Of a DNA stretch of 25,897 nucleotides, positions 6,263-18,028 are shown piece by piece. The position numbers and the translations under genes were made by a program. The notes beneath the pieces were generated by a model. It searched no databases and was not told the origin of the DNA. It worked only from the letters and a program-made list of their open reading frames with translations. Location of the stretch: positions 1 through 25,897 of the IMG/VR virus record IMGVR_UViG_3300042566_001944; one strand, 5' to 3'. Numbering within the stretch: position 1 is the stretch's first letter; each line of letters begins with the position of its first letter. The DNA comes from a virus.

Positions 6263-6768
6263 TGGACGTTCCTCTGGTAGCACAGAATCGCCATCAGGGC
6301 GGCCTCCGCGCGGCCGTCGTCCTTGACGCGCGCAAACAGGCCGGCTTGCGCGGGCAGCAGCTCCTGCGCGCGCAAGCGGCTCCCGTCCTTCCCGCCGCGC
6401 ACGTTCATGGCTTTGCGCCACGCGCTCGGCAGCACCAGCTCGGTGGGCACCGTCATGCCGGCCAGTATGCCCTCGACGAGGCCCAGCGAGCGCCCGAACG
6501 AGAACATGGACGTGACGCCCTGCCCGGGCATCGCGCCGACCTTCTCGACGTAGGCGCGCAGCACGCCATCGGGGGCCTTCTGCTCGGCCAGCATGTCGGC
6601 TTCGCGCAGCAGGTAGGCCAGCATCAGGGGCGACACCTCCCGCTTGTTCTTGCCGTTGCGCGCCACGTGCACCGTCGGCATGTCCCACACGTGCACCCGC
6701 GCGCCGTCGTAAAGCGCGATAGCTCCGTTGAGCCCCGGGTCCACGCCGAGCGCCGGGTGCGCGCTCAC
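6259..6768 (-). CDS. RuvC-like Holliday junction resolvase
   Basis: Likely cuts four-way DNA junctions made during phage recombination or before packaging. The 169-residue protein has the RNase H-fold RuvC layout: D10 in GVDPGLNGAI, E75 in YVEKVGAM, and an acidic pair D150/D151 followed by E155 in DDGRAEAALMA. The MFSFGRSLGLVEGIL segment is typical of RuvC relatives in phages. The length is close to bacterial RuvC. The GTG start overlaps the stop of the HTH gene (GTGA). It is followed by the SNF2 translocase, which could act as its branch-migration partner in place of host RuvAB; that pairing is inference. Confidence 0.9.
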   Translation of the reverse strand: MSAHPALGVDPGLNGAIALYDGARVHVWDMPTVHVARNGKNKREVSPLMLAYLLREADMLAEQKAPDGVLRAYVEKVGAMPGQGVTSMFSFGRSLGLVEGILAGMTVPTELVLPSAWRKAMNVRGGKDGSRLRAQELLPAQAGLFARVKDDGRAEAALMAILCYQRNVQ

Positions 6769-6992
6769 GCGGCGTCCTCCAGCGTGTCGAAGAACGCCGG
6801 CGTGTTGACCATGCCGGTGCGAATCAGCATCAGGCTCCACACGGGCCGTGCCATGTGGCGTCGGCCCTGCTCCCAGTACGAGACACTGGTCACGGACACG
6901 CCAAGCTGGGCGGCCAGCTCCTTCTGGGTCCAGCCTACGGCGTTGCGCACCGCCTTAACGTGCGCGGGCGTGGGGCGAACGGGAATCGTCAT
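6765..6992 (-). CDS. Small XRE-type helix-turn-helix protein
   Basis: DNA-binding regulator candidate of 75 residues. Residues about 10-45 form an XRE/Cro-like helix-turn-helix (VRNAVGWTQKELAAQLGVSVTSVSYWEQGRR given here as the motif WTQKELAAQLGVSVTSVSYW). The rest is a short C-terminal tail without a dimerisation or peptidase domain, so it is not a CI/LexA-type repressor. ATG start with ATGA overlap to the upstream gene; the stop overlaps RuvC as GTGA. Being inside the replication operon rather than at the control region, it may act as a Cro-like late regulator or as an autoregulator. Its operator is not known; the repeats near 11794 and 13857 are candidates to test. Confidence 0.88.
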   Translation of the reverse strand: MTIPVRPTPAHVKAVRNAVGWTQKELAAQLGVSVTSVSYWEQGRRHMARPVWSLMLIRTGMVNTPAFFDTLEDAA

Positions 6993-7186: not shown

Positions 7187-7938
7187 TTGCCGCCACCAGC
7201 AGCGGCAAGCGCATCGTTCCAACCCCTCGCGTACTCCGGGTGATGGCACATGCTGGCCGTCAGTGGCTCCACCATCGCCTCCGTCACCCCGGCGCTGGGA
7301 CTCGCCGCGCTGAGTGCTGCGCGGTAAGTCTTGAACTGTTCAGATTCCTCTACGCAGTAGTACCCGTCTGTGCAACTTTCCAAAAGTTCAATGTAAGCTT
7401 GCGCGGCCTCCATCACCCCGGCGCTGTCGGCGGGCTTCCCGTAAGGGTTGGCTAGGTCGGTAATAGTCCAATCCTCGGCCTGCGGGTCAATGATGTTGAC
7501 CAGCCTGCGGGCCGTTTCAATGTCGCCAGTGTAGAAGTATCCGTTCGGCCCGTCGCACAGGTAGCGCGTGGATGCGTTGTCCGTTGTGAAGTGCGCGTCC
7601 CCCTCCACTGCAGCGGCGGGCGGGGCCTTGAGTTCGCGGAAGTAGGTTTCAGCAGACGATACCATCAGGGATTCATAAGCATCCCCCTCGGGATTGGCCT
7701 GCTCCACGGCGGCGCGGGCGTAGGCTTCGCGGGCGTCACCGTAGGCTTGCAACTGCTCGGCGGTGTAGTACGGCTCTGTCGTCCACACCGTCCATCCGGG
7801 GCCGTGGGCGCTTTCGACTTCCTCGTTCACTTCATCACGAGAAACGCCGACAACGTGATTTGGCTGGTGTGTCTCCAGCCCGCGCAGTCCAGTGGCGACC
7901 CAAAGCTCGGCTTCCGGCAACTTCGTTTTACTGGTCAC
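7183..7938 (-). CDS. Modular accessory protein, paralogue of the 9346-9630 product (251 aa)
   Basis: Function unknown. Clear modules are visible: an N-terminus TSKTKLPEAE; a helical YTAEQLQAYGDA...YARAAVEQANPEG block (about 58-85); a core domain at 126-167 beginning YLCDGPNGYFYTGD and ending DWTITDLANPYG; and a C-terminal HPEYARGWNDALAAA segment of a kind often ending phage accessory proteins. The start, helical block and core domain recur in the 94-residue product at 9346-9630 (26 of 42 core residues identical), so this is a family duplicated within one cassette. The GTG start overlaps the upstream stop (GTGA), as does the downstream junction. Such shuffled proteins are often host-interaction or anti-defence factors; this is inference only. 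Confidence 0.85.
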   Translation of the reverse strand: MTSKTKLPEAELWVATGLRGLETHQPNHVVGVSRDEVNEEVESAHGPGWTVWTTEPYYTAEQLQAYGDAREAYARAAVEQANPEGDAYESLMVSSAETYFRELKAPPAAAVEGDAHFTTDNASTRYLCDGPNGYFYTGDIETARRLVNIIDPQAEDWTITDLANPYGKPADSAGVMEAAQAYIELLESCTDGYYCVEESEQFKTYRAALSAASPSAGVTEAMVEPLTASMCHHPEYARGWNDALAAAGGGK

Positions 7939-9345: not shown

Positions 9346-9630
9346 TCACTTCTCCCGGAGGGTGATGGTGCCAAACGGGTTGGCTATGTTGGTGATAGTC
9401 CAATCGTCGCCTTCCGGGTCAATCAGGTTGACCAACTTCCGGGCCATGCCCAAATCGTCATGGTAGAAATAGCCTTCCGGGCCGTCGCAGAACCACACCG
9501 CCTCCACCCCCTCGGGCTTGGCCTGCTCCACGGCGGCGCGGGCGTAGGATTGCATTTGGTCGGCGGTGTAGCCTCCGGGCAACCAGTAATCGGGCAGCGG
9601 CAACTCCGGCAATTTCGTTTCACTGGTCAC
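9346..9630 (-). CDS. Short paralogue of the 7183-7938 product (94 aa)
   Basis: Function unknown. It carries the N-terminus TSETKLPEL, the YTADQMQSYARAAVEQAKPEG helical block and a core domain at residues 46-87 (WFCDGPEGYFY...DWTITNIANPFG) also found in the larger protein encoded at 7183-7938. It lacks that protein's long insert and C-terminal segment. The GTG start at 9630 overlaps the upstream stop (GTGA). The DNA around the two start codons is also nearly the same, so the pair probably arose by duplication inside the genome or by import of related modules. Confidence 0.82.
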   Translation of the reverse strand: MTSETKLPELPLPDYWLPGGYTADQMQSYARAAVEQAKPEGVEAVWFCDGPEGYFYHDDLGMARKLVNLIDPEGDDWTITNIANPFGTITLREK

Positions 9631-10812: not shown

Positions 10813-11100
10813 TCACTTCTCCGTCTCAGTTTCGATGGGCCAGCCGGGGCGGCCGGGGATGTCGGCGGTGTTGGGGTCGTCGGTGGGCGCCGGGAACGTC
10901 AGCAGCTCGGCCATGCGTGCCTCGCACGCGATGGCCGTGCACACCGCTTCGTGTTGCGCCGCCCAGTCCACTTCGCCGTGCCTGTTGTCGCGGAGGGTTT
11001 GGCGCGCGGCCTTGTACGACGCCCACACCGTGCGCATCTCGCGCAGGGTCAGCAGGGCTTGCTCGGCCGCGCGCTCGCGCGGCGTGGTGTTCTTGTTCAT
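10813..11100 (-). CDS. Unknown helical protein with proline-rich tail (95 aa)
   Basis: Not recognised. Residues 7-70 are helical (RERAAEQALLTLREMRTVWASYKAARQ; EAVCTAIACEARMAELL), and the end is polar and proline-rich (PAPTDDPNTADIPGRPGWP). The ATG at 11100 is preceded by a purine-rich AAGGGGGAGAA and overlaps the stop of a 10-codon mini-ORF (ATGA). Starting at an upstream ATG in the same frame would overlap the preceding gene. Similar helical proteins of this size are common among phage early genes. Confidence 0.75.
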   Translation of the reverse strand: MNKNTTPRERAAEQALLTLREMRTVWASYKAARQTLRDNRHGEVDWAAQHEAVCTAIACEARMAELLTFPAPTDDPNTADIPGRPGWPIETETEK

Positions 11101-11129
11101 TTCTCCCCCTTCATGGCGGTCGCGCTCAC
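11097..11129 (-). CDS. Ten-codon mini-ORF bridging two genes
   Basis: A reading frame GTG...TGA encoding MSATAMKGEK. Its GTG overlaps the stop of the 123-residue gene (GTGA) and its own stop overlaps the start of the 95-residue gene (ATGA). The Shine-Dalgarno sequence of the next gene lies inside it. It may serve only to carry ribosomes from one gene to the next rather than to make a working peptide. Seen only by position; no other support. Confidence 0.35.
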   Translation of the reverse strand: MSATAMKGEK

Positions 11130-11497
11130 GCGGCACCGCCGATGGCCACGTCGCGGCTCAGCGGGTAGGTGGCGCTCGGGTCCATCACGTGGCCGGCGCC
11201 GTTGTGCATCAGCACCGTGCGGCCACGCATGCGCGCCACGTAGGCGCCCGGCACCAGCGCGGCCAGCACGACGTTGACGCGCGAGCGGGTCGTCGGGGTG
11301 TCCCCGCCGCACAGGCTCACCAGCACGCGCGGGGGTGCGTGCAGGTTGTTGGCGGGGATGGTGGCGATGCGGGAGCCATGCAGCTCCACCTGCAGGTCGC
11401 CCGTGGCGGGGTCGCGGCGCACGCGGTCACGCGTGCCGGAGCGGAAGTCGCGGCCGTCGCGGATGGCGGCGGCCAGTTGCTGTTCAATCTTGCGCAT
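11126..11497 (-). CDS. Conserved phage protein of unknown function (123 aa)
   Basis: Function unknown. The product opens with MRKIEQQLAAAIRDGRDFRSG, then a short beta-rich unit with LQVELHGSRIATI, and then RVLVSLCGGDTPTTRSRVNVVLAALVP. I recognise this as a pattern shared by small proteins of many phages of Gram-negative bacteria; it has no known activity. ATG start with AAGGA in a C-rich leader (CACCCCAAGGA) that is repeated ahead of other genes. A GC-rich hairpin lies just upstream. This gene opens the run of overlapping genes leading to the replication block. Confidence 0.8.
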   Translation of the reverse strand: MRKIEQQLAAAIRDGRDFRSGTRDRVRRDPATGDLQVELHGSRIATIPANNLHAPPRVLVSLCGGDTPTTRSRVNVVLAALVPGAYVARMRGRTVLMHNGAGHVMDPSATYPLSRDVAIGGAA

Positions 11498-11519
11498 GGT
11501 CTTGGGTCCTTGGGGTGGT

Positions 11520-11542
11520 GCCCGGCGCGGGATGCGCCGGGC
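11520..11542 (-). other. Intergenic hairpin, 9-bp perfect stem
   Basis: GCCCGGCGC and GCGCCGGGC pair perfectly across a 5-nt loop in the 52-nt gap between two early genes. On the minus strand it is followed by a C-rich leader rather than a T run, so it is probably an mRNA-stabilising or processing structure rather than a terminator. Confidence 0.55.
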
Positions 11543-11549
11543 GGGTGGG

Positions 11550-11726
11550 TCAGGTGAAAATGGTCAGGTGGGTGTAGGCAGACTCCAGCGCCAGCCACGC
11601 GCGCCCCGCGGCGGCGTGCTCGGGCGTGCCGTCGTCGAGATTGTCTTCCAGCTCCGCCATTTCTTCCTGCAGCGCCTCGATGCGCGTCCGCAGGGCTTGG
11701 GCTTTGGCGTACAGGGTGTCATCCAT
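11550..11726 (-). CDS. Small coiled-coil protein (58 aa)
   Basis: Not recognised. A 58-residue acidic protein, with residues 3-30 forming an obvious coiled coil (LYAKAQALRTRIEALQEEMAELEDNL in heptads) followed by a short helical end. The ATG at 11726 follows AAGGAC within a long C-rich leader; a second ATG-like frame position 4 nt away is out of frame. It is the first gene after the leftward promoter at 11765-11827, and so the first product of that transcript. Confidence 0.75.
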   Translation of the reverse strand: MDDTLYAKAQALRTRIEALQEEMAELEDNLDDGTPEHAAAGRAWLALESAYTHLTIFT

Positions 11727-11764
11727 CAGTAGGTCCTTGGGTGGGTGGGTGGTTGGTACAGGGT

Positions 11765-11827
11765 CAGTATGCCACAGGTGAAACGTAGTTGCTTACCGTT
11801 CGTCGGTCGAATCGTACCGTTCGTCGG
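11765..11827 (-). promoter_or_regulatory. Leftward early promoter with two 13-bp operator-like direct repeats (copy 1)
   Basis: On the minus strand an extended -10 (TGGCATACT; CATACT at 11766-11771) lies 40 bp before the 11726 start codon. Upstream are two perfect copies of CCGACGAACGGTA (plus coordinates 11794-11806 and 11815-11827), 21 bp apart, with the nearer one over the -35 position. There is no good -35 hexamer. The whole 63-bp block matches 52 of 63 bases with the block at 13828-13890. Two helical turns of spacing suggest adjacent binding of an activator or repressor. The repeats also encode the end of the small membrane protein at 11793-11930. Confidence 0.72.
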
Positions 11828-11930
11828 CTTCTCGCTCGGCGCGTCGCGCACGGTCCCGGGCGTCGGCCACTTCCAGCCCGAGACCAAAGACCAAGCCGCA
11901 CAGGAGCACCAGAAGGGCGGCCCATATCAT
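11793..11930 (-). CDS. Small membrane protein ending inside the promoter repeats (45 aa)
   Basis: Not recognised and short. It starts with MIWAALLVLLCGLVFGLGLE, one membrane helix, followed by a highly charged tail (ARDRARRAEREADER). The ATG overlaps the upstream stop (ATGA), as is usual here. The last 14 codons lie in the two CCGACGAACGGTA repeats of the leftward promoter, giving the tail the repeated ending DER. A single helix plus charged coiled tail would fit a membrane anchor or a small Rz-like protein; there is no proof of either. Confidence 0.6.
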   Translation of the reverse strand: MIWAALLVLLCGLVFGLGLEVADARDRARRAEREADERYDSTDER

Positions 11931-12121
11931 CGCTCGGGCCTCCCATCCACGCGCCAGCCCTTGGCGCGCGTCGCGTCGCCACGCGCGCGCTGCGCATGCT
12001 CGCCCGCGAAGGCGCGCGCCTGATACCGGGTGGGGAAAAACCCCAGCACCTCGGCGCCCAGCTTGACGACAAAGGCCGTGCGCGTCGCCGATTCCTTTAC
12101 GGTGTAGCGGCGCGCGGTCAT
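11927..12121 (-). CDS. Small basic unknown protein (64 aa)
   Basis: Not recognised. The 64-residue product has a short beta-like N-terminus (TARRYTVKESATRTAFVVKLGAEVLGFF in two strands) and a basic helical end (YQARAFAGEHAQRARGDATRAKGW). The ATG at 12121 overlaps the upstream stop (ATGA), and its own stop overlaps the next ATG the same way. A longer frame reaching 12196 would overlap the upstream gene by nearly 80 bases and is rejected. Confidence 0.72.
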   Translation of the reverse strand: MTARRYTVKESATRTAFVVKLGAEVLGFFPTRYQARAFAGEHAQRARGDATRAKGWRVDGRPER

Positions 12122-12393
12122 GGCGCGGTCTCCGCCACGTGGTACTGGCAATTCAGCCATTTGCCCAGCGGCCACGTCTCGCCGTTCGACCGGCAATACT
12201 GCGAACCCTTTGAAATGCCTCCTTCGCCGGGGAAAACAGTCAAGTCATACCATTCGCGGCAATCGCGGTACTGTGGCGCGTAGAACTTCCCGCTAAACGG
12301 CATAGGCCGCTTGGCCCATTCCGGAACGTGCGTCATAGTGAAACGATGCACGAACAGAGCGCAGGCGCGTTCAAAACTTACCGGGCGGGTCAT
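12118..12393 (-). CDS. Unknown protein rich in aromatic and cysteine residues (91 aa)
   Basis: Not recognised. A 91-residue protein with many Trp, Tyr, Phe and Cys residues, including FERACALFVHRF, YRDCREWYDLTVF and SQYCRSNGETWPLGKWLNCQYH. Three cysteines (in the DCRE, QYCR and NCQY segments) and nearby histidines might bind metal. ATG start with ATGA overlap on both sides. The local base composition is less GC-rich than the flanking genes, as in the accessory cassette to its left, hinting at separate acquisition. Confidence 0.75.
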   Translation of the reverse strand: MTRPVSFERACALFVHRFTMTHVPEWAKRPMPFSGKFYAPQYRDCREWYDLTVFPGEGGISKGSQYCRSNGETWPLGKWLNCQYHVAETAP

Positions 12394-12725
12394 GCCGCAC
12401 CCCCGAACTTGGACAGGGCGGCCAGCAGGCGAGCCGTGCGGGCGTCAGTAGCGCCAAGCCCCATTGTGCCGCCACGCTTCGCCTTGATAGCCGTCGCCGC
12501 CGCTACCAGCTCCGCCACAGCGGCGCGGGCAAGGGACAGTTCCCGCACCCGCGCGGCGCCTTGCTCCAGCGTGTCGCCGGTTTCGCCCAGTGTCGCACCG
12601 GGCCGCCGCGCAAGCATCGCGACCCTGTTCGCGGCCACCTTCTCCGCCCAGTCCATCACCGCCAGCACATCCACCGGGGCGCTCACTGGTATGCCGTAGT
12701 TGCGGCAGTCCACCGGCCCGCTCAC
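12390..12725 (-). CDS. Unknown helical protein (111 aa)
   Basis: Not recognised. A mostly alpha-helical 111-residue protein (VLAVMDWAEKVAANRVAMLA; RVRELSLARAAVAELVAAATAIKAKRG), probably a helical hairpin or coiled coil. The GTG start overlaps the stop of the upstream gene (GTGA), and its stop overlaps the next ATG (ATGA). No motif suggests a function. Confidence 0.75.
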   Translation of the reverse strand: MSGPVDCRNYGIPVSAPVDVLAVMDWAEKVAANRVAMLARRPGATLGETGDTLEQGAARVRELSLARAAVAELVAAATAIKAKRGGTMGLGATDARTARLLAALSKFGGAA

Positions 12726-13099
12726 GCCGGCACCCCGGCGCGCTCGTCGCGGTCCTCGAACAGTTCCAGCGGGCCGTCGGTCGCCAGCCCGTTGGCCAGC
12801 AGTCCCAGCCGCATCTTATACAGCCCGTCGGCGATGCGCTTCTGCGTCAGGGGCGCGCCCTGCGGATAGTCCAGCACCAGCCTGTGGCGGCGGTCGCCGT
12901 CGCCGGCCAGCCCGATGGCGGTTTCCCACGACGTGCCGGTCAGGCCGTCGCGGTAGGTGTGGCGCATGCGGCGCCCTTCTTGGGCCACGGCTTGGATACT
13001 GCCGCCCGAGTTCTTGTAGCAGGTCACGCGCCACGTGTGGCCGGGCTTGGTGCTGGCCAGCATCAGGTCGGGCGAGTCGGTCTTTGCTTTGGTGTTCAT
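12722..13099 (-). CDS. Unknown protein, possibly nucleic-acid associated (125 aa)
   Basis: Not recognised. A 125-residue protein with a beta-rich centre (TWRVTCYKNSGGSIQAVAQ; GLTGTSWETAIGLAGDGDRRHRLVLDYP) and a helical C-terminus (AQ...KRIADGLYKMRLGLLANGL). Starts at ATG 13099 behind AAAGGA in a C-rich leader (CCCACCCAACCCAAAGGA); longer frames upstream lack such a site. It overlaps the next gene as GTGA. It belongs to the first genes transcribed from the leftward promoter near 13830. Confidence 0.78.
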   Translation of the reverse strand: MNTKAKTDSPDLMLASTKPGHTWRVTCYKNSGGSIQAVAQEGRRMRHTYRDGLTGTSWETAIGLAGDGDRRHRLVLDYPQGAPLTQKRIADGLYKMRLGLLANGLATDGPLELFEDRDERAGVPA

Positions 13100-13127
13100 G
13101 GGTCGGTGTCCTTTGGGTTGGGTGGGT

Positions 13128-13361
13128 TCAGCAATCGGTGGCGCGCGAGACCGCCAGCGCGGCCGCGTGGTCGGCGTCTTGGATGACGCGCTCGGCGGCC
13201 AGCGCGAAAGCCGCCGCGCGGCCGGCGAGAATGGCGGCCGGCGTATCACGCGCGGCCGTTTGCAGGCGGCTGGCCAGCCGCTCGGCTTCGCGTACCGCGT
13301 CACGGGCGCGGCCGATGGCCTTGTGCGCTTCGTTGGCGGCGTTCAACAGTTCGATGTTCAT
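13128..13361 (-). CDS. Unknown alanine-rich helical protein (77 aa)
   Basis: Not recognised. A 77-residue protein made of long alanine-rich helices (AANEAHKAIGRARDAVREAERLA; AAILAGRAAAFALAAERVI), most likely a coiled coil. The ATG at 13361 is preceded by CACCCAAGGACCAAGACCCC, the recurring early-gene leader, and another AAGGA copy 17 bases further upstream. Separated from both neighbours by short gaps rather than overlaps, unlike the genes further left. Confidence 0.75.
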   Translation of the reverse strand: MNIELLNAANEAHKAIGRARDAVREAERLASRLQTAARDTPAAILAGRAAAFALAAERVIQDADHAAALAVSRATDC

Positions 13362-13371
13362 GGGGTCTTGG

Positions 13372-13405
13372 TCCTTGGGTGGGGGCCGTCCTTGGCCGGG
13401 TGGGG
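13372..13405 (-). repeat. Doubled C-rich leader/Shine-Dalgarno repeat
   Basis: Two copies of the early leader lie in tandem in the gap between genes: 13372-13385 (CCCCCACCCAAGGA on the minus strand) and 13389-13405 (CCCCACCCGGCCAAGGA). Only the nearer one is at normal distance from the start codon at 13361. The second looks like a duplicate. Confidence 0.6.
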
Positions 13406-13410
13406 CGCGG

Positions 13411-13785
13411 TCAGGCCGCGCGGGTGCCGTTGGGCAGGATGAAGAAGGCCGGGTTGAACGGGCCCCAATCGTCGGCCTTGGGGCCAACCAACTCGCCGGT
13501 GCTAATCAGCGGCTCCACGTTGCCGTCCGCGTCCACGCGGGCCTTGCAGTAGGCGACGCAGTCCTGCAGCAAGCCGGCCGCGATGGCATCGAGCGTGCTC
13601 GTGTACGGGGGCCAGCCGTCCACCAGCAGCACGAGCGTGGGCTCGGTGTCGCTCGCGTGCACGGCCGACGATGCGATGGTGTCCGTGCGGCCGACGTGGG
13701 TTTGGACCAAGGCCAGCGCCGTCGCGGCGGGTAGGGTCTTGTCGGTGCCGGGGATGTTCAGGCCGATGTTAAGAAGGTAGTGCAT
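13411..13785 (-). CDS. First leftward gene, unknown protein (124 aa)
   Basis: Not recognised. A 124-residue protein predicted as mixed alpha/beta (MHYLLNIGLNIPG; LPAATALALVQTHVG; TEPTLVLLVDGW; LDAIAAGLLQDCVAYC; FNPAFFILPNGT). It starts at ATG 13785 with AGGAA upstream and is the first gene after the control region, 44 bp downstream of the -10 of the leftward promoter. The regular strand-helix pattern suggests a small globular domain, but no family was recognised. As the first product of the leftward operon it would be made very early in infection. Confidence 0.78.
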   Translation of the reverse strand: MHYLLNIGLNIPGTDKTLPAATALALVQTHVGRTDTIASSAVHASDTEPTLVLLVDGWPPYTSTLDAIAAGLLQDCVAYCKARVDADGNVEPLISTGELVGPKADDWGPFNPAFFILPNGTRAA

Positions 13786-13827
13786 GGGTCGGGTTCCTGT
13801 CAGATGCTGGCTCGGTGCCAGTGAGTG

Positions 13828-13890
13828 CAGTATGCCACAGGTTGGACGTAGTTAACTACCGTTCGTCGGCCAAAAGCTACCGTTCGTCGG
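13828..13890 (-). promoter_or_regulatory. Leftward early promoter with two 13-bp operator-like direct repeats (copy 2)
   Basis: Same layout as the block at 11765-11827: extended -10 TGGCATACT (CATACT at 13829-13834) and two perfect CCGACGAACGGTA repeats at 13857-13869 and 13878-13890, 21 bp apart, with identical distance from -10 to repeats. Expected transcription starts near 13822 and proceeds to the gene at 13785. A weak -35 (TTAACT) is visible here but not in the other copy, so regulation through the repeats is probable. Confidence 0.74.
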
Positions 13891-13908
13891 TCGTGGACGG
13901 ATGGAGCT

Positions 13909-13917
13909 TGTGGATAA
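13909..13917 (-). promoter_or_regulatory. Consensus DnaA box
   Basis: TTATCCACA on the minus strand, a perfect match to the bacterial DnaA-binding consensus. It is the only such box in the control region and lies next to an AT-rich stretch. A chance match is possible, but the position favours a role in origin firing or in host-DnaA-dependent regulation. Confidence 0.5.
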
Positions 13918-13945
13918 GTGCATCCGTCAGGGCTTGTGTCAGTCG

Positions 13946-13963
13946 TAAGTGCTTGATTAGTAT
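13946..13963 (+). repeat. 18-bp direct repeat, copy 1
   Basis: TAAGTGCTTGATTAGTAT; it matches 17 of 18 bases with the copy at 14434-14451, about 490 bp away in the same orientation. Confidence 0.85.
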
Positions 13964-13969
13964 AGATAA

Positions 13970-13995
13970 TGACAGATAGACAGTTCTGACAGATA
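13970..13995 (+). repeat. TGACAGATA direct repeats spaced 17 bp
   Basis: TGACAGATA occurs at 13970-13978 and 13987-13995, with a further GACAG in between. On the minus strand the copies lie just upstream of TATACT, a good -10 sequence (13958-13963), so they may be binding sites for a regulator of an additional leftward promoter or iterons of the origin. Confidence 0.65.
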
Positions 13996-14010
13996 AATAA
14001 CTAATACAGC

Positions 14011-14033
14011 TATACATGTATGTACGTGCACAT
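14011..14033. other. 23-nt alternating pyrimidine-purine tract
   Basis: An unbroken alternation from TATACATG through TACGTGCACAT, preceded by AT-rich sequence. Such tracts tend to unwind or adopt Z-form DNA, which would suit an origin or promoter opening site. Contains the palindrome ATACATGTAT. Confidence 0.55.
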
Positions 14034-14063
14034 CATGCGTGTGCTGGGGTTAACCGGAAACCT

Positions 14064-14087
14064 ATGCGTCAGCCGTCAATGCGTCAG
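14064..14087 (+). repeat. ATGCGTCAG direct repeats spaced 15 bp
   Basis: Exact copies at 14064-14072 and 14079-14087, with a related ATGCGT at 14035. Possible protein-binding sites; function unknown. Confidence 0.6.
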
Positions 14088-14134
14088 GGGGCGATGCGGC
14101 GGGGTGGTTGGGAGCGGCCGAGCTCAGGCCGGGG

Positions 14135-14200
14135 ACCGTACGGGTTCGGGGTTGGGCGTATGGTGGTGGGACCATACGGTTCAGGGGCGGGGAGTACGGT
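14135..14200. repeat. Cluster of CCRTACGG motifs with a perfect 8-bp inverted repeat
   Basis: CCGTACGG (14136-14143) is a palindrome. CGTATGGT and ACCATACG (14157-14164 and 14171-14178) form a perfect inverted repeat around GGTGGG, and AGTACGGT follows at 14193-14200. The first and third motifs are followed by similar GGTTC-GGGG sequence. The arrangement resembles clustered operator sites for a dimeric regulator. Confidence 0.65.
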
Positions 14201-14259
14201 CGGGAGTGTAATGTTATAACGTAACGTCGGCCGTGCCGGCGTGGTGGGCGCCGGGGGGC

Positions 14260-14283
14260 ATCCGACTTGACATAATATCCGAC
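14260..14283 (+). promoter_or_regulatory. ATCCGAC repeats flanking a consensus -35 (TTGACA)
   Basis: ATCCGAC at 14260-14266 and 14277-14283, 17 bp apart, with TTGACA at 14267-14272 between them. No matching -10 is seen 16-18 bp downstream, so a functional promoter is not shown; the repeats might bind a regulator. Confidence 0.4.
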
Positions 14284-14357
14284 CTGCACGTGGGGGCTTG
14301 GGGGTGTGCTCGATGTTCCACGCCGCAATGCCTTACTAATCAAGGGGTTAGCGCATC

Positions 14358-14400
14358 TTAACTTTCGTTCGGATACCTACAACGCCGGAACGAATGTTAA
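14358..14400. repeat. Long imperfect inverted repeat (15-16 bp arms)
   Basis: TTAACTTTCGTTCGG (14358-14372) is complementary to CCGGAACGAATGTTAA (14385-14400) with one mismatch and one bulged base, around a 12-nt spacer. It has no T run on either strand fitting a terminator. An operator or a recombination site is likelier. Confidence 0.75.
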
Positions 14401-14433
14401 GGCCGGGGCGGCTGGGCACGGCCTAGACTGGGC

Positions 14434-14451
14434 TAAGTGCTTGATTCGTAT
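14434..14451 (+). repeat. 18-bp direct repeat, copy 2
   Basis: TAAGTGCTTGATTCGTAT, 17 of 18 bases the same as at 13946-13963. It is followed by a G-rich run on the same strand. Confidence 0.85.
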
Positions 14452-14568
14452 GGGGTGGGGGAAGGGCGTAACGGAAAATTAACGAAAGGCCCCCCGGGTG
14501 CCCCTTCGCGCCGGGGCGGCTCTCACCGCGGGACTCCACGCCTACCCGGCTCCAAAAAATTCGGCAGA

Positions 14569-14607
14569 CCCCCCACCCACCCCCCTTCGCCGCCACGCCC
14601 CCTCCCC
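14569..14607 (-). other. G-quadruplex-prone tract on the minus strand
   Basis: Five runs of three to six guanines on the minus strand, with single-base gaps except one 12-nt gap. This meets the usual pattern for a stable G-quadruplex. It is flanked on both sides by a related AAAAATT...GACCCCC sequence (from about 14554 and 14610), possibly an old duplication. Confidence 0.5.
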
Positions 14608-14629
14608 TGAAAAATTTTGGGCGACCCCC

Positions 14630-14670
14630 TTGCCTTCCCCGTTCCGGCGTGCCAGAATCGTCGCCGGAAC
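14630..14670 (+). promoter_or_regulatory. Likely rightward promoter overlapping a perfect inverted repeat
   Basis: TTGCCT (14630-14635) and CAGAAT (14653-14658) are 17 bp apart, and a TG one base before the -10 strengthens it. The perfect inverted repeat GTTCCGGCG/CGCCGGAAC (14641-14649 and 14662-14670) encloses the -10 and would let a bound protein block it. CGCCGGAAC recurs in the inverted repeat at 14383-14391. It lies 26 bp before the first rightward ATG. Confidence 0.6.
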
Positions 14671-14695
14671 ATCCTACCCACCCAAGAGAACGAAC

Positions 14696-15103
14696 ATGCC
14701 CACCGACTACCACGGCGCCCTCACCGGCCGGTACTACGCCGCGAAAGCGGCCCGAACCCACGAGGCCCAGTTGGCCAACGAACTGCTCCGCGAGCACGGC
14801 CGCATCCACGACGGCTGGGCCGCCGCGGGGCAAGCCTTCATAGGCGGCCGAGGCCCGGGATTCAGCAGCTTCGGCCTGCTCGTCCGCACCGGCCCCGGCC
14901 GGTTCGACATCGTGGGGACCGCGGTGGCGGGGCTGGCGGCGGACTTCGCCGGGGAACTGATGCCGATTGGCCCCCGTCGGCCCGACACGTTCTACCGGGA
15001 GGGGGGTCAAGCCACCACCCGCGGCGAGCCCACGCGCTTTAGCGTCACGGGCGACTACCTCACCCGGCGCCTCCGCGCCGCCGAGTTGGGCCGGGAGCTC
15101 TGA
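14696..15103 (+). CDS. First rightward gene, unknown protein (135 aa)
   Basis: Not recognised. A 135-residue protein with a polar helical N-terminus (YYAAKAARTHEAQLANELLREHG), a central glycine-rich part (FIGGRGPGFSSFGLLVRTGPG) and a basic C-terminus (YLTRRLRAAELGREL). The ATG at 14696 was chosen over upstream starts because it follows CCCACCCAAGAGAACGAAC, a variant of the leader seen before the early genes, and comes 26 bp after the likely promoter. It overlaps the recombinase gene (TGATG), suggesting linked expression. Perhaps a partner or regulator of the recombinase; this is inference. Confidence 0.78.
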   Translation: MPTDYHGALTGRYYAAKAARTHEAQLANELLREHGRIHDGWAAAGQAFIGGRGPGFSSFGLLVRTGPGRFDIVGTAVAGLAADFAGELMPIGPRRPDTFYREGGQATTRGEPTRFSVTGDYLTRRLRAAELGREL

Positions 15104-15843
15104 TGGCCGTTTACGGCTACACCCGCGTCTCCACTGCGCTGCAGGTGGACGGCACCAGTCTGGGGGACCAGCGACGCCGCATCGTGGCCATCGCGGATTT
15201 CCACGGCTGGACCATCGAGGAGATGTTCGAGGACCGCGGCGTCTCCGGCGGCACGTCCCTGCACGAGCGGCCGATGGGCCACGCCCTCGTGGCCAAGCTC
15301 CAGCCCGGGGACACGCTGGTGGTCTCGAAGATGGACCGCCTGTTCCGCTCGGCCGAGGATGCGGTGCGCCGGACCAACGTGTGGGCCAAGGTCGGCGTGC
15401 ACTTGGTGGTGGGCGACATCTCGACCGACCCCGTGACCAAGGACGGCGTGGGCCGCCTGTTCTTCACCATTCTGGCGGCGATGGCCGAGTTCGAGCGGTC
15501 GCGCATCGCCGAGCGCGTCAACGCCGGCAAGGAGGCCAAGCGCGCGGCCGGTGGGTTCGCCGGCGGCAAGCCCCCGTTCGGCTACATCGTCGAGGGCAAG
15601 GGCAAGTTCGCCAAGCTGATGCCCCACCCGCAGTTGTTCCCGGTGCGGGCCCGCATCGCGGCCATGCGCATGCGGGGGTCGAGCTTCCGCGAGATTCAGG
15701 CGGCCGTGATGCAGGACTTCCCCATCCGGCTGGGGCTGGCCACCATCACGAAAGTGTGCAAGGATTCGGCCCCCGAGGCGTCGTTTGGCGATGACCGCAC
15801 GCTGCCGCCGCCCCTTCCGTTTGCCAACGAGCTGCTGGACTGA
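15103..15843 (+). CDS. Small serine recombinase (resolvase/invertase family)
   Basis: Site-specific recombinase that cuts DNA through a serine-DNA link. The 246-residue protein shows the catalytic N-terminus YGYTRVSTALQ with nucleophile S10 and R8, the MDRLFRSAEDA helix and the typical EFERSRIAERVNAGKEAKR segment near residues 132-150. It then has a PPFGY-containing linker as in recombinase-domain proteins and a short C-terminal DNA-binding part. The length is near resolvases and invertases (about 180-250) and well below the large phage integrases (450-700), so resolution or inversion is likelier than classical phage integration. It lies between the control region and terminase; inverted repeats in the control region are candidate target sites. 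Confidence 0.92.
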   Translation: MAVYGYTRVSTALQVDGTSLGDQRRRIVAIADFHGWTIEEMFEDRGVSGGTSLHERPMGHALVAKLQPGDTLVVSKMDRLFRSAEDAVRRTNVWAKVGVHLVVGDISTDPVTKDGVGRLFFTILAAMAEFERSRIAERVNAGKEAKRAAGGFAGGKPPFGYIVEGKGKFAKLMPHPQLFPVRARIAAMRMRGSSFREIQAAVMQDFPIRLGLATITKVCKDSAPEASFGDDRTLPPPLPFANELLD

Positions 15844-18005: not shown

Positions 18006-18028
18006 ACGCTGTCCTTGGGTGGGACGGG

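Follow-up and report, generated by a model that had tools for sequence, protein, structure and literature searches.

Two leftward promoters in a phage genome are probably driven by a host-encoded LytTR regulator of the AlgR type (to which we assign a probability of about 0.73), with binding, activation and the identity of the host and its regulator being inferred. They lie in a stretch of viral DNA of 25,897 nucleotides (IMG/VR record IMGVR_UViG_3300042566_001944), the whole of which is here called the window. In the proposed mechanism, the upstream half of each of two 63-bp blocks would be a tandem AlgR-type LytTR site with identical half-sites 21 bp apart, the proximal half-site lying near -41, flush against a degenerate -35 element that is followed by an extended -10. 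A host AlgR-like response regulator would occupy the two half-sites from the same side of the helix, recruiting or positioning RNA polymerase, and the two leftward operons (from 13785 and from 11726) would be switched on together when the host regulator is active. We infer early timing for both operons.

The paired blocks and their boxes

The blocks at 13828-13890 and 11765-11827 (promoters P1 and P2, respectively) are identical at 52 of 63 bases, and each holds two copies of the exact 13-mer CCGACGAACGGTA (plus-strand form TACCGTTCGTCGG) with a period of 21 bp. The four copies, all on the minus strand, are the only ones that a search of the whole window found, and other matches at up to 3 mismatches occur at chance level. 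The 22-mer ACGTNNNACCTGTGGCATACTG is present only at the two blocks, with 0 expected in shuffles. In both blocks the 9-mers GACGAACGG stand 12 nt apart, giving a 9/12/9 direct-repeat layout, and 22 bp separate the end of the proximal box from CATACT, which is preceded by TG (an extended -10). P1 (13846-13853) and P2 (11783-11790) have the octamer AACTACGT in common between box and -10, and the block alignment shows the 15 bp around the -10 to be identical as well. If transcription starts near 13822 and 11759, as predicted, the proximal boxes are centred at about -41 and the distal boxes at about -62. The individual features are as follows.

13857-13869, minus strand: P1 proximal box CCGACGAACGGTA, exact match, with the AlgR 9-mer at 13859-13867; centre about -41
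13878-13890, minus strand: P1 distal box CCGACGAACGGTA, exact match; centre about -62
13829-13837, minus strand: P1 extended -10 TGGCATACT, from sequence; its 22-bp offset from the box is the peak offset in other phages
13838-13856, minus strand: P1 stretch from box to -10 with the octamer AACTACGT, from the block alignment; without a consensus -35
13411-13785, minus strand: first gene downstream of P1, an ORF of 124 aa assigned to phrog_11722 (PHROGs, E 2e-17), of unknown function
11794-11806, minus strand: P2 proximal box CCGACGAACGGTA, exact match
11815-11827, minus strand: P2 distal box CCGACGAACGGTA, exact match
11766-11774, minus strand: P2 extended -10 TGGCATACT, from sequence
11550-11726, minus strand: first ORF downstream of P2, 58 aa, with no family match in a PHROGs search

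The product of the first P1 gene, which starts at 13785 (that of P2 starts at 11726), has no relatives among the viral contigs. The block identity, the four 13-mers, their spacing and the identical extended -10 reported in an earlier, sequence-only reading of this DNA were all reproduced, and the lack of a good -35 that it had described is borne out by a scan of positions 11000-14800, in which no consensus sigma-70 promoter was found. Its wider picture, of regulated leftward promoters with a site that is bound twice at two-turn spacing, also appears sound as a prediction; the site would lie by the -35, and the promoters head the leftward cluster. Two other assignments of the blocks were rejected. 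For a sigma-54 promoter (TGGCA...TGCA) the spacing is off by 4 bp and TGCA is not conserved in the second block, and the resemblance to lox66/lox71 arms (TACCGTTCGT) is a coincidence, the copies being direct, not inverted, and having no link to a recombinase.

Several other features lie around the promoters. The minus strand has a perfect DnaA box, TTATCCACA, at 13909-13917; it precedes the P1 distal box by 19 bp and adjoins an AT-rich stretch in which TGACAGATA occurs twice (13970 and 13987), and together these may form a replication origin. The same TTATCCACA directly follows the doublet in one viral locus (L001), making 2 of 45 sites as against 0.19 expected. The sequence GTCCTTGGGTGGG occurs exactly three times (11733-11745, 13371-13383 and 18011-18023), with further near copies (8 at up to 2 mismatches, 1 expected); two of the exact copies directly precede minus-strand starts and read CCCACCCAAGGAC there, perhaps as a repeated ribosome-binding leader. 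A 45-bp direct repeat of 96% identity lies within two ORFs (7683-7727 and 9507-9551) and probably represents a domain common to both. Just past the intergenic region there is a serine recombinase/integrase-like gene (15103-15843), so the phage may be temperate.

Recurrence of the doublet in viruses and bacteria

The pair of boxes with a 21-bp period (the doublet) recurs widely. A scan of IMG/VR with 26 fixed bases and any 8-nt spacer found it in 20 other viral contigs, and an 18-base core in 57; across these occurrences the spacers vary freely while the boxes are constant, the search itself having demanded exact boxes. At control spacings of 22-29 bp, 28 IMG/VR contigs were found in all, 12 of them at 22 bp (of which about seven are promoter-like) and 1-2 at each of the other spacings except 27 bp, where the peak (N18) proved to be in-frame coding repeats. 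Judged from these counts, the preferred period is 21 bp, with 22 bp a minority.

Among phage isolates, blastn with three doublet queries found full doublets in one record only, that of Stenotrophomonas phage Sonora (S. maltophilia, MZ326860), in which gene groups are preceded by four exact doublets, the 21-bp spacing being the only one to occur in the range 10-39 bp. In three of its promoters TATACT lies at 39, 39 and 49 bp on the opposite side of the boxes, again one turn apart; compared with the window, the Sonora boxes are reversed relative to the promoters, so more than one arrangement exists. Two boxes occur singly in Xanthomonas phage FoX6, and TATTAT follows at about 21 bp.

The distance between box and -10 was analysed in 44-45 dereplicated viral sites, counting hexamers that match TATAAT in at least five of six positions. 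Such hexamers fall at 21-25 bp past the proximal box in 11 of 220 cases, versus 11 of 2156 at other offsets (Fisher p 1e-6), and a smaller group lies one turn further, at 32-35 bp. The pattern box-N22..24-TATAAT occurs in 31 stretches, whereas a control distance of 15-17 nt gave 0. Four of the 31 (loci L217, L222, L223 and L216; five matches) come from one 55-kb phage contig, IMGVR_UViG_3300022305_000867, whose five single-box promoters of the same type make it a candidate for a whole LytTR-box regulon. A weak -35 as a general trait of such promoters was considered and rejected, -35 quality showing no significant difference between doublet and single-box promoters.

Descent probably does not account for the distribution. 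None of 160 relatives of the window phage (80 by capsid (MCP) and 80 by DUF2800, few of them close and many of them fragments) carries the doublet, and conservation by descent was rejected on this basis. The box is absent from distant relatives, which indicates a patchy distribution rather than descent, as would be expected if phages with suitable hosts had acquired it independently several times. The sequence-only reading had staked its case partly on conservation in relatives; the doublet is indeed missing from the distant ones, but that absence is not decisive, as their protein identity reaches about 70% at most, many of them are fragments, and unrelated phages do have the site.

In bacteria, one genome scan with a 22-base core found the doublet at 52 loci (in Actinobacteria, Proteobacteria, Lachnospiraceae, Myxococcales and others). 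A LytTR gene adjoins it at 14 of 48 loci, as against 0.13 predicted by the per-genome count of LytTR genes, the LytTR profile having been seeded from these same loci and the per-genome counts taken from an independent Pfam search. LytTR is encoded in 44 of the 48 motif-bearing genomes, mostly exactly once, and in 30 of 60 Actinomycetes in a comparison sample. In Actinobacteria the doublet adjoins genes for a REC-LytTR response regulator, a LytS-type kinase and a sodium:solute symporter-like protein (the last named from its sequence rather than by family search), and in a Chitinophagaceae contig it lies between tgt and a LytTR gene. At three proteobacterial loci, in beta-type genomes, it has lpxH as a neighbour and directly precedes a minor-pilin operon that includes PilV; at a fourth, in Thiomonas, a pilin-like gene lies downstream. 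The LytTR domains of the motif-bearing proteobacterial genomes, AlgR-like ones included, and of the actinobacterial genomes have HRSxL and VSRR in common. The 18-base doublet was present in only 3 of 369 genomes of a gammaproteobacterial sample, which makes the perfect doublet uncommon in chromosomes as well. The Lachnospiraceae doublets (L064, L075 and L092) are beside apparent terminators and not by obvious promoters.

The putative binding protein and its effect

The Pseudomonas AlgR box is the 9-bp CCGTTCGTC, which forms the core of algD RB1/RB2, algC ABS1 and rhlA ABS1 (PMC4064291). All four window boxes match it at 9 of 9 positions, as bases 3-11 of TACCGTTCGTCGG, the box core GACGAACGG being CCGTTCGTC on the opposite strand. 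LytTR sites in general comprise repeats of 9-11 nt with spacers of 11-13 nt (PMC4847170), and typically lie just upstream of the -35 of promoters with an extended -10, being activating in the cases studied (PMC6193735). The window site has the features of a LytTR operator in its repeat/spacer layout, its AlgR box sequence, its position by the -35 and -10, and the linkage of its bacterial counterparts to LytTR and pilin genes. No LytTR domain was found in the window, in 50 motif-bearing viral records (mostly fragments, whose phages may encode one elsewhere) or in four phage isolates, including Sonora. With a site of the AlgR/LytTR type and no LytTR found in the phages checked, a host-encoded regulator is favoured, and one of the AlgR type would be the simplest reading of the binder.

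It may be that the boxes are LytTR repression operators, at which a host AlgR-type regulator bound by the -35 keeps the operons off until a host signal changes, though we consider this unlikely. AlgR does repress some promoters, e.g. rhlA (PMC4064291), and polymerase can be blocked from a site that abuts the -35. Many of the single-box promoters in phages combine a strong -35 with a strong -10, so that they do not necessarily need an activator. By contrast, the window promoters have no consensus -35, the proximal box at about -41 is at the usual place for a class II activator, LytTR repeats just upstream of the -35 activate in the cases studied (PMC6193735), and the distances most often seen to the -10 are 22-25 bp or roughly a turn more (32-35 bp). 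Activation would be favoured over repression by the combination of helical phasing, a box in the class II position and a -35 of poor quality. The earlier proposal had left the choice between activator and repressor open; its protein site bound twice is retained, as probably that of an activator and possibly that of a repressor.

A phage-encoded protein binding the direct repeats, either the small XRE-type HTH protein encoded at 6765-6992, named earlier as a candidate, or another early phage factor, is improbable. Such a small HTH protein is indeed encoded in the window, and Xis/MerR-like phage proteins, such as 186 Apl, can bind direct repeats (PMC7498355). However, among 40 doublet-carrying records only one has a relative of the HTH protein, and that a weak match, and the box is not palindromic, unlike the usual XRE operators. 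No phage gene is common to most of these records: the one found at the largest number of viral loci (14) is terminase-type. The same motif adjoins LytTR genes and pilin operons in bacterial chromosomes. A BldC/Xis-like direct-repeat binder was rejected in the same way, no such gene being common to the viral loci.

That the two blocks are a recent duplication of one promoter, with repeats devoid of regulatory meaning, is very improbable, for although the blocks are alike beyond the boxes (in the octamer and the 15 bp around the -10), the doublet is found with different spacers, fixed spacing and a fixed -10 distance in many unrelated phages; the earlier argument that selection had kept the repeats draws its support from these independent occurrences, the pair alone being compatible with recent duplication too.

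Wider meaning and relation to known systems

The LytTR/AlgR type of operator is already known from bacterial genes. A literature search, which covered few subscription journals, did not find described a wide use of LytTR operators by phages that have no regulator of their own. There is perhaps an even chance that a host two-component regulator of the AlgR/LytTR kind, controlling type IV pili as well in several hosts, has been recruited independently by many unrelated phages to run early or middle operons. If so, phages would commonly read a host two-component system, and phage expression would be gated by the signalling state of the host surface and pili without any phage-encoded regulator. 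Infection would then be predicted to depend on the host AlgR-type regulator, for which the isolated phage Sonora allows a direct test, and the geometry of box and -10 provides a ready sequence signature for finding such promoters. Type IV pili are a common phage receptor. They serve as the receptor of the S. maltophilia phages DLP1 and DLP2 (PMC6024842). A link from the boxes to type IV pili as phage receptors is put forward as a hypothesis only.

In P. aeruginosa, the fimU-pilVWXY1E operon is under AlgR control, so that AlgR and the bacterial doublet have a minor-pilin operon as a shared target. The P. aeruginosa AlgR sites (algD RB1-RB3, algC, rhlA and fimU) and the window boxes have the identical core CCGTTCGTC. 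The counterpart of the window proximal box, by position and orientation, is algD RB3, which is a related site in the opposite orientation, at -45, and is required for full expression (PMC4064291). The P. aeruginosa sites are, however, dispersed and usually not in tandem with a 12-bp gap (PMC4064291), whereas those of the window are perfect tandem copies, and are in a phage.

The promoters regulated by AgrA, ComE, HdrR/BrsR, YpdB and BtsR resemble those of the window in having repeats of 9-11 nt with a spacer of 11-13 nt, immediately ahead of a weak -35, the -10 being extended. By contrast, their sites are chromosomal and usually beside the regulator gene, whereas the window phage has the site but no LytTR gene. 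The actinobacterial loci encoding LytS/LytTR and an SSS permease have the same (C/G)CGACGAACGGTC doublet at 21 bp, but there it is a chromosomal cognate target by the regulator and usually ends in C, not A. Among phages, FoX6 and FoX7 (Carpasinavirus) of Xanthomonas are unrelated to the window phage, FoX6 having single boxes, while Sonora, also unrelated, has the exact doublets of the window, with boxes facing the other way.
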